A stretch of 64,000 bases of DNA from Vicingus serpentipes (lineage in GTDB: Bacteria > Bacteroidota > Bacteroidia > Flavobacteriales_E > Vicingaceae). This document shows positions 42,727-44,245 of the stretch, one piece after another. Positions within the stretch are counted from its first letter, which is position 1; every line of letters begins with the position of its first letter. The position numbers were made by a program, and so were the translations under genes. The notes under the pieces are model-generated. The model was not told where the DNA came from. It searched no databases and saw only the letters and a program-made list of their open reading frames with translations. The DNA is taken from contig JAGFIT010000009.1 of assembly GCA_024103385.1 (NCBI GenBank), positions 1-64,000 of the forward strand, given 5' to 3'.

Positions 42727-42801
42727 CGGGATGTAGCTTAGTCCGGTTAAAGTGCGCGTCTGGGGGGCGCGAGATCGGAGGTTCGAATCCTCTCATCCCG
42801 A
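42727..42801 (+). tRNA. tRNA-Pro (anticodon GGG)
   Basis: 75 bases. Acceptor CGGGATG pairs with CATCCCG, the discriminator is A, and CCA is not encoded. The anticodon stem CGCGT/GCGCG holds the loop CTGGGGG, giving anticodon GGG (reads CCC). The T arm contains GGTTCGAATCC. The 3' end is repeated 162 bases downstream. Confidence 0.96.
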
Positions 42802-42810
42802 CAAAGAAAA
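42789..42810 (+). repeat. Direct repeat, copy 1: 3' end of tRNA-Pro plus 9 bases
   Basis: 22 bases starting CCTCTCATCC and ending GACAAAGAAAA; the same 22 bases occur exactly at 42951-42972. Position at a tRNA 3' end is typical of attachment sites. Confidence 0.88.
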
Positions 42811-42812
42811 TT

Positions 42813-42836
42813 TGCAACGTAGTTGCAGATTTTTTT
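42813..42836 (+). terminator. Rho-independent terminator of the tRNA-Pro gene
   Basis: TGCAAC and GTTGCA form a 6-bp stem with a GTA loop, followed after GA by seven T. It begins 12 bases after the tRNA. Confidence 0.75.
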
Positions 42837-42889
42837 GTGAGATAAAATGAACTAAGTTCTACTTGTGAGAATGAAATCTCACAAAAAAA
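42830..42889. repeat. 14-bp inverted repeat between the tRNA-Pro direct repeats
   Basis: TTTTTTTGTGAGAT (42830-42843) and ATCTCACAAAAAAA (42876-42889) are perfect inverted copies 32 bases apart. They lie wholly inside the segment bounded by the two direct repeats. Confidence 0.75.
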
Positions 42890-42950
42890 GCAAGTGAAAC
42901 GAAAACTTTCTTTTCGGAATTTACTTATGAAGAGGATCACTGAAAGTAAC

Positions 42951-42972
42951 CCTCTCATCCCGACAAAGAAAA
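42951..42972 (+). repeat. Direct repeat, copy 2: duplicated tRNA-Pro 3' end
   Basis: Exact 22-base copy of 42789-42810. It has no tRNA body upstream of it, so it is a scar of duplication and not a second tRNA gene. Confidence 0.88.
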
Positions 42973-43042: not shown

Positions 43043-44245
43043 ATGAATGCTAATCAACAACTAAAAATAGTTGCCAAAACGGCTGCTGGATTAGAAGATG
43101 TTTTAATTGAAGAATTAAAACAGTTAGGCGTTACCGATTATGAAAAAGGAATAAGGGCTGTTACCTTTTATGGAAACAAAGAAATGTTATACAAAGCCAA
43201 TATATGGTTAAGAACAGCTAACCGATTAATTGTTCCCTTTAAAGAGTTCTCTATTAAAGAGTTCTCTATTAAAGATGCTGATGATTTATACCGCCAAGTT
43301 AAAAGAATAGAATGGGAAACTATTTTTGATGTTGATCAAACTTTTGCTATTGATTCCACTGTTTTTTCTCCATTATTTAACCACACCAAATTTCCAGCAC
43401 TAAAAGCTAAAGATGCTATTGCAGATCGGTTTAGATCAAAATTTGATAAACGACCGAATGTAGATCCTGAAAAACCAGATATCAGAATTAATCTTCACAT
43501 TAGTATAGATAACAGATGTACAATTAGTTTAGATAGCTCTGGAGACCCTTTATTTAAAAGAGGATATAGAGATAGCCGAAGTTTAGCACCTATTAAAGAA
43601 GATTTAGCTGCTGGTATGATTTTGTTGAGTGAATGGGATAAAGATTCCAACTTTGTAGATTTATTTTGTGGTTCAGGAACCCTGCTAATAGAAGCAGCAA
43701 TGATTGCTAACAACATCGCTCCTAACATCAACAGAGCTGTATTTGGTTTTATGAATTGGAAAACTTTTGATGAAGTTCTTTTTAATAAAGTAATTGATGA
43801 GGCTTTGGATGAAGAAATCGATTTTAAGCATCAAATTATAGGAGTAGATATTGATGCAAGAGTTATGGGAATGAGTAGAGCTAACATTGAAGCAGCTGGA
43901 TTAACGGATAAAATCACACTATTTAAAAAAGATTTCAAAGACTTTAAAGCTCCTGATAAAAAAGGTGTTATTGTTTCTAATCCTCCCTACGGAGAGAGAA
44001 TAGGTGAAAATGTGGATGATTTATACAAAGCTTTTGGTGACAATTTAAAAGCTCAATACGATGGCTGGAATGCTTGGTTAATCAGCTCTAATATGGGTGC
44101 TTTAAAAAAAGTAGGACTACGTCCTTCTCGAAAAATAAAATTATTTAACGGAAGCTTAGAATGCCGTTTTATGAAATATGAAATGTACAAAGGCACCAAG
44201 AAAACTCATAAATTAGCAAAAGCAGACGAAAATAGACAAGAATAA
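43043..44245 (+). CDS. THUMP-domain class I SAM-dependent RNA methyltransferase (RlmL/YpsC-like)
   Basis: 400 residues. N-terminal THUMP domain (about 55-165), then the methyltransferase part with FVDLFCGSGTLLIEAAMIA (motif I) and the catalytic N-P-P-Y in IVSNPPYGERIGENVD. Family members make 2-methylguanosine in 23S rRNA. A 15-base tandem duplication at 43241-43270 repeats the five residues KEFSI in the THUMP region without changing frame. Confidence 0.94.
   Translation: MNANQQLKIVAKTAAGLEDVLIEELKQLGVTDYEKGIRAVTFYGNKEMLYKANIWLRTANRLIVPFKEFSIKEFSIKDADDLYRQVKRIEWETIFDVDQTFAIDSTVFSPLFNHTKFPALKAKDAIADRFRSKFDKRPNVDPEKPDIRINLHISIDNRCTISLDSSGDPLFKRGYRDSRSLAPIKEDLAAGMILLSEWDKDSNFVDLFCGSGTLLIEAAMIANNIAPNINRAVFGFMNWKTFDEVLFNKVIDEALDEEIDFKHQIIGVDIDARVMGMSRANIEAAGLTDKITLFKKDFKDFKAPDKKGVIVSNPPYGERIGENVDDLYKAFGDNLKAQYDGWNAWLISSNMGALKKVGLRPSRKIKLFNGSLECRFMKYEMYKGTKKTHKLAKADENRQE
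43241..43270 (+). repeat. 15-base tandem duplication inside the THUMP methyltransferase gene
   Basis: The unit AAAGAGTTCTCTATT occurs twice in a row, giving KEFSIKEFSI. In frame and apparently tolerated. Confidence 0.9.

Follow-up and report, generated by a model that had tools for sequence, protein, structure and literature searches.

In the window, by which we mean the whole 64,000-nucleotide stretch of Vicingus serpentipes DNA that was analysed, an intact tRNA-Pro(GGG) gene is followed on the same strand by a second copy of its own 3′ end (Table 1). This is the only Pro-GGG gene in the genome, and whatever event produced the second copy therefore had to leave the gene functional. The duplication 162 bp downstream, as first reported in the preliminary description, is real: an exact repeat of 22 bp widens to 25 bp with a BLAST E-value of 2.7e-8 (search space of about 3 kb), and an exact 18-mer of the repeat has only two copies genome-wide, both at this locus. 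The duplicated block can be placed more sharply than "in the T arm," as it starts at A58 of the T-loop, and the displaced copy carries a single substitution, T60 to C. The repeat continues for 8 bases beyond the tRNA (AAAGAAAA), and these coincide with the left inverted repeat of the element described below. No real open reading frame (ORF) is present in the 140-bp spacer, the sole candidate being a spurious antisense ORF. Moreover, an Rfam 15 scan of the spacer and its relatives returned nothing but tRNA at or above the gathering score, and the spacer had no match in a phage collection. Further along the window, at positions 43239-43268, an RlmL-like coding sequence contains an exact 15-bp tandem duplication (TTAAAGAGTTCTCTA twice) that adds five in-frame codons.

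Table 1. Features of the tRNA-Pro(GGG) locus, in positions of the window
Feature	Position	Strand	Remarks
Intact tRNA-Pro(GGG), host gene	42727..42802	+	61.3 bits; insertion point 42785 (nt 57) / 42786 (A58)
First copy of tRNA 3′ tail, A58-C74	42786..42802	+	Part of the intact tRNA
Exact direct repeat, 22 bp	42789-42810 / 42951-42972		
Widened direct repeat, 25 bp	42786-42810 / 42948-42972		One mismatch (96%); spacing 162 bp
Left inverted repeat AAAGAAA, from tRNA +1	42803..42809	+	Shuffled fraction 0.075, not significant alone
Terminator-like hairpin P2, TTTGCAAC-GTA-GTTGCAGA, then T-run	42804..42836	+	
Long inner hairpin P3, 14-bp arms TTTTTTTGTGAGAT/ATCTCACAAAAAAA, small GAACTAAGTTC tip	42830..42889	+	
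Right inverted repeat TTTCTTT	42907..42913	+	About 35 nt upstream of the displaced tail
Conserved right end TTTTCGGAATT... GGATCACTGAAAGT	42911..42947	+	Includes the AGAGGAT arm
Fake T-arm 5′ arm AGAGGAT	42931-42937	+	Pairs with the displaced tail
Displaced tRNA tail A58-C74 (42948-42964) plus 8 bp equal to the element start (AAAGAAAA)	42948..42972	+	

We consider it likely that this sequence is a non-coding, non-autonomous mobile element of 162 bp, inserted in the T-loop of tRNA-Pro(GGG) between nt 57 and 58, and it appears to belong to an undescribed family of elements and not to be what a lost island left behind. Insertion would regenerate the tRNA 3′ end on the left, displacing the original 3′ end to the right, where it would be joined to a hairpin that imitates a T-arm. 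The 5′ arm of this fake T-arm, AGAGGAT, complements tRNA nt 59-65 exactly and differs from the real 5′ T-strand (GGAGG); it has therefore been copied from the 3′ strand or adjusted to it.

A fixed break shared by many tRNA genes

The duplication at tRNA-Pro is one of several. Among 52 tRNA genes examined in the same genome, six (Pro-GGG, Arg-TCT, Arg-ACG, His-GTG, Met-CAT and Thr-TGT) are followed at a distance of 112-194 nt, with no intervening ORF, by a same-strand repeat of their own 3′ end. In 6/6 the copy starts at A58, placing the break between nt 57 and 58 of the T-loop (TTCG^A, or TTTG^A in Arg-ACG). The same 57|58 break was found at tRNA-Pro of five other genomes (G015, G018, G036, G174 and G241; G, C and L numbers are our handles for genomes, contigs and loci), and at Pro-CGG of G305, Pro-TGG of G028 and Ser-GGA of G107; tRNA-Pro of Aureibaculum has it in two tandem copies. 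Short matches at tRNA-Phe (L040) and tRNA-Gly (L027) were judged to be chance.

The internal layout recurs at Pro, Ser, Val and Arg tRNAs in other families of the class. Reading outward from the tRNA, a left inverted repeat at +1 generally comes first, and then two hairpins, one terminator-like and the next long and internal; beyond these lie the right inverted repeat, an often C-rich linker, the fake T-arm (GGATCAC..GT|AATCC) and the displaced tail. The period is 112-194 nt in 16 single-round elements, mostly 160-187, and the right inverted repeat ends 28-42 nt ahead of the break in most elements; the inverted repeat exceeds that of shuffled sequence in 11 of 25. The fake T-arm 5′ arm pairs better with the T-stem of its own tRNA than with those of other tRNAs (mean helix 4.78 vs. 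3.81, permutation p 2e-4). Element sequences diverge strongly between families, so that some of the likeness is purely structural, and exact unit boundaries are uncertain because identity in L005, L118 and L119 continues past the tail into the terminator. At Thr-TGT (112 bp) and Met-CAT (194 bp) the break fits but the full layout does not, the Met-CAT element lacking the fake-T-arm pairing.

These elements were located via tRNA copies, and copies away from tRNAs are visible to a motif search alone. As an independent check, we searched 119 genomes of the class by sequence for the right-end motif GGATCACN{0,6}GTAATCC, which gave 45 matches vs. 4 for the reversed pattern used as control. Once matches within coding sequences were set aside, 11 tRNA genes from 8 genomes among the fetched loci (Ser-GGA, Ser-GCT, Arg-TCT, Arg-ACG, Val-GAC and Pro-GGG) had the motif downstream at 129-156 nt, always on the same strand; in two places a second-round motif follows at 206 or 321 nt. 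The 11 do not include a match 70 nt after a tRNA-His (L149), since that match falls within a GIY-YIG ORF. Five further fetched matches lie in ORFs of at least 376 codons and were taken as chance, as were the matches outside the class, where those fetched had no nearby tRNA and nearly all fell in ORFs. Tandem arrays of 2-5 copies of the right-end motif occur in G085 (L141 on C8; C32 and C48), with a period of about 102 bp, and in G036 (L158 on C94), with a period of 100 bp.

Multiple lines of evidence suggest that the elements move. The Arg-TCT body of the present genome matches the second body at its own Arg-ACG (75% over 117 nt, E 1.6e-16), the corresponding bodies in G028 share 83% over 151 nt (E 1.5e-40), and the right ends of the present Arg-TCT and the G028 Arg-ACG elements match across families (E 2.8e-7). 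Two rounds are stacked at Arg-ACG here, at Arg-TCT in G028 and at tRNA-Pro of Aureibaculum; the newer round is taken to adjoin the tRNA because the outer tail is more decayed. In the congener G007, a TonB-receptor gene, tRNA-Pro and rlmL lie in the same order as in the window (47% identity for the TonB-receptor and 71% for RlmL), with no tail copy and a tRNA-to-rlmL gap of 59 nt vs. 240 nt here, thus representing an empty site. A second congener, G001, has rlmL (78% identity) near tRNA-Pro in a rearranged neighbourhood, likewise with no tail copy. It had been proposed that the same spacing in all distant relatives, without an insert in any strain, would point to simple local duplication. The spacing is indeed similar in distant relatives, yet the G007 site is empty, and the outcome favours an insertion.

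Some of these observations could also be accommodated by a structured RNA, conserved in the 3′ trailer of the tRNA and regulatory or involved in processing, that is spread by host duplication. All elements lie immediately downstream of a tRNA, on its strand and with a terminator hairpin, and the fake T-arm has an arm matched to the host tRNA. However, the patchy distribution with empty sites, the repeated stacking, the homologous bodies at unrelated tRNA genes and the lack of an Rfam match render this explanation improbable. Nor would it be exclusive, since a mobile element could act at the RNA level too.

How a mobile element of this kind might insert can be sketched from its anatomy. The T-loop box GTTCGA is universally conserved. 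A putative enzyme acting in trans would cleave the DNA at this box, with duplication of a tail of 17 nt or more, and the host-complementary arms suggest a template-switch or fold-back step. Copying from mature tRNA, with a stop at a modified A58, does not fit the window, where the displaced tail runs into the genomic flank (AAAGAAAA) and not into CCA, and was rejected there. Once inserted, the element probably persists by supplying a terminator and leaving an essential tRNA functional. More tentatively, and with the balance of our judgement against it, undescribed T-loop mini-elements may hop between tRNA genes by inverted copying of the target, restoring the tRNA in each round and so giving rise to stacks; the fake T-arm, like the right inverted repeat, is complementary to host sequence beside the break.

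Integrase islands and other known mobile elements

A direct repeat spanning a tRNA 3′ end is the classical signature of an att site (PMC9897764), and the preliminary description attributed the locus to tyrosine-recombinase integration at tRNA-Pro, the short spacer being what remained of an excised or decayed element, or else a very small element. The repeat block does end at the tRNA 3′ end, as for classical att sites. The option of a very small element, with a tRNA 3′-end copy split off through insertion, fits our results; the integrase does not. Inserts of the same 112-194 bp, with the same 57|58 break, occur at Pro, Arg, His, Ser and Val tRNAs of differing sequence, which an integrase that needs a matching overlap sequence would not hit at one break, and one element is not tied to one tRNA sequence, as Met and Thr tRNAs are used as well. 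The spacer contains no integrase gene or remnant, the relatives with this break have short spacings, and no insert with a 57|58 break exceeds about 190 bp per round. Also against a decayed island are the conserved ends and body of the insert and an internal architecture that is conserved among elements.

The tRNA-Pro tail was also surveyed by exact pattern across 295 genomes. Close tail pairs were separated by 176-360 nt, those at 336 and 360 containing GIY-YIG genes, and none of the pairs opened had a long insert with the T-loop break at its ends. The distant same-contig pair in G162 consists of two separate intact tRNAs, and other such pairs (e.g., G270, at 113 kb; G174; G144) are most simply explained as separate tRNA-Pro genes. 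An island finds support in G160, a genome with many integrases in which partial tRNA-Pro copies lie 22 kb apart on one contig without an intact tRNA; these copies, however, start in the anticodon region and not at 57|58. We therefore regard the scar or decayed remnant of a tyrosine-recombinase element with tRNA-Pro as its attB as a very improbable account of the locus in the window. The G160 copies themselves (L124 and L125, contig 13) are likely the ends of an integrated island, and integrase islands probably do use tRNA-Pro in the class, with another break and on another scale.

Set against known systems, the T-loop elements resemble tyrosine-recombinase elements, which use T-loop, anticodon or 3′-end sublocations of tRNA genes, in targeting a tRNA gene, restoring the tRNA and leaving a 3′ fragment at the far end. 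They differ in having no integrase, a length of about 160 bp, one break across tRNA sequences, inverted repeats of their own and a conserved right end. With MITEs and REP/RAYT sequences they share being short, non-coding, hairpin-rich, present in many copies and presumably moved in trans, and, like MITEs, they combine the absence of an ORF with terminal inverted repeats and several dispersed copies per genome. In contrast to both, they are confined strictly to tRNA T-loops in one orientation, with at least 17 nt of the tRNA 3′ end duplicated. No autonomous parent with the same ends was seen among the loci examined. As to a mobiliser, the RAYT/Y1 transposase (PF01797) was rejected, being absent from G085, G074 and G107 despite their motif matches; it is also missing in G067, whose motif matches may be chance.

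We found no description of T-loop mini-elements in the open literature, subscription journals and preprints being outside the scope of that search. Partial tRNA copies are routinely interpreted as island attachment sites. The elements described here constitute a widespread non-island source of such copies, with one fixed break in the most conserved box of the tRNA gene, and they call for caution in island-finding programs as a class of false att pairs. They also make it possible to study, in a well-delimited setting, how an element inserts into many different tRNA genes while sparing those that are essential and present only once.

GIY-YIG nuclease genes at tRNAs

A second class of tRNA-associated locus carries a nuclease gene. 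In the present genome, 4/8 small GIY-YIG genes sit between a tRNA (Leu-GAG, Val-TAC, Met-CAT and Asn-GTT; L039, L041, L053 and L063) and an incomplete copy of it. When one genome per species was scanned, 54 GIY-YIG relatives emerged. A tRNA lies within 600 nt of 36 of them, and in 25, from several phyla, the nuclease gene, on the tRNA strand, separates that tRNA from a partial copy of it (L166-L217). Such loci range from Bacteroidota to Desulfobacterota, Nitrospirota and Patescibacteria.

These loci raise the possibility that the T-loop elements are non-autonomous derivatives of the GIY-YIG/tRNA elements of their own genome and are mobilised by those nucleases. Both classes split off pieces of a tRNA, keep the tRNA whole and co-occur in genomes, and at L145 a displaced tail is followed by a GIY-YIG gene. 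The breaks of the nuclease class, however, are scattered and not at 57|58. Moreover, a small GIY-YIG protein was rejected as a necessary mobiliser, being absent from both G085 (13 motif matches) and G028, whose only such proteins are of UvrC length or about 450-480 aa. We consequently hold this derivation to be quite unlikely. A parallel may be drawn with free-standing GIY-YIG homing endonucleases, such as T4 SegB and those of the nuclease class, which likewise insert beside or inside a tRNA gene and leave the tRNA whole. Unlike these, the T-loop elements have no ORF, and hence no GIY-YIG gene inside the unit, their break is fixed, and some of the genomes that carry them have no small GIY-YIG gene.

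Descriptions of tRNA-associated GIY-YIG loci in Bacteroidetes were likewise not found in the open literature (subscription journals and preprints again outside the scope), and these loci point to a broader biology linking nucleases with tRNA genes, apparently unrecorded so far. Their displaced tRNA copies often hold an inserted palindrome, e.g., TCCCGC..GCGGGA. Repeatedly, and in distant phyla, a palindrome of the type TCCCGC-n-GCGGGA replaces a loop or arm (L190, L191, L194, L196, L199, L201, L120, L121 and L168). At L178, units of a GIY-YIG gene and a tRNA-Pro 5′ part are repeated in tandem, with a period of about 304 bp, upstream of the real tRNA. Upstream of the tRNA-Pro (TGG) gene of G020 (L030) lie four near-identical tandem pseudo-tRNA-Pro units of 127 bp, in which the anticodon arm is replaced by a hairpin.
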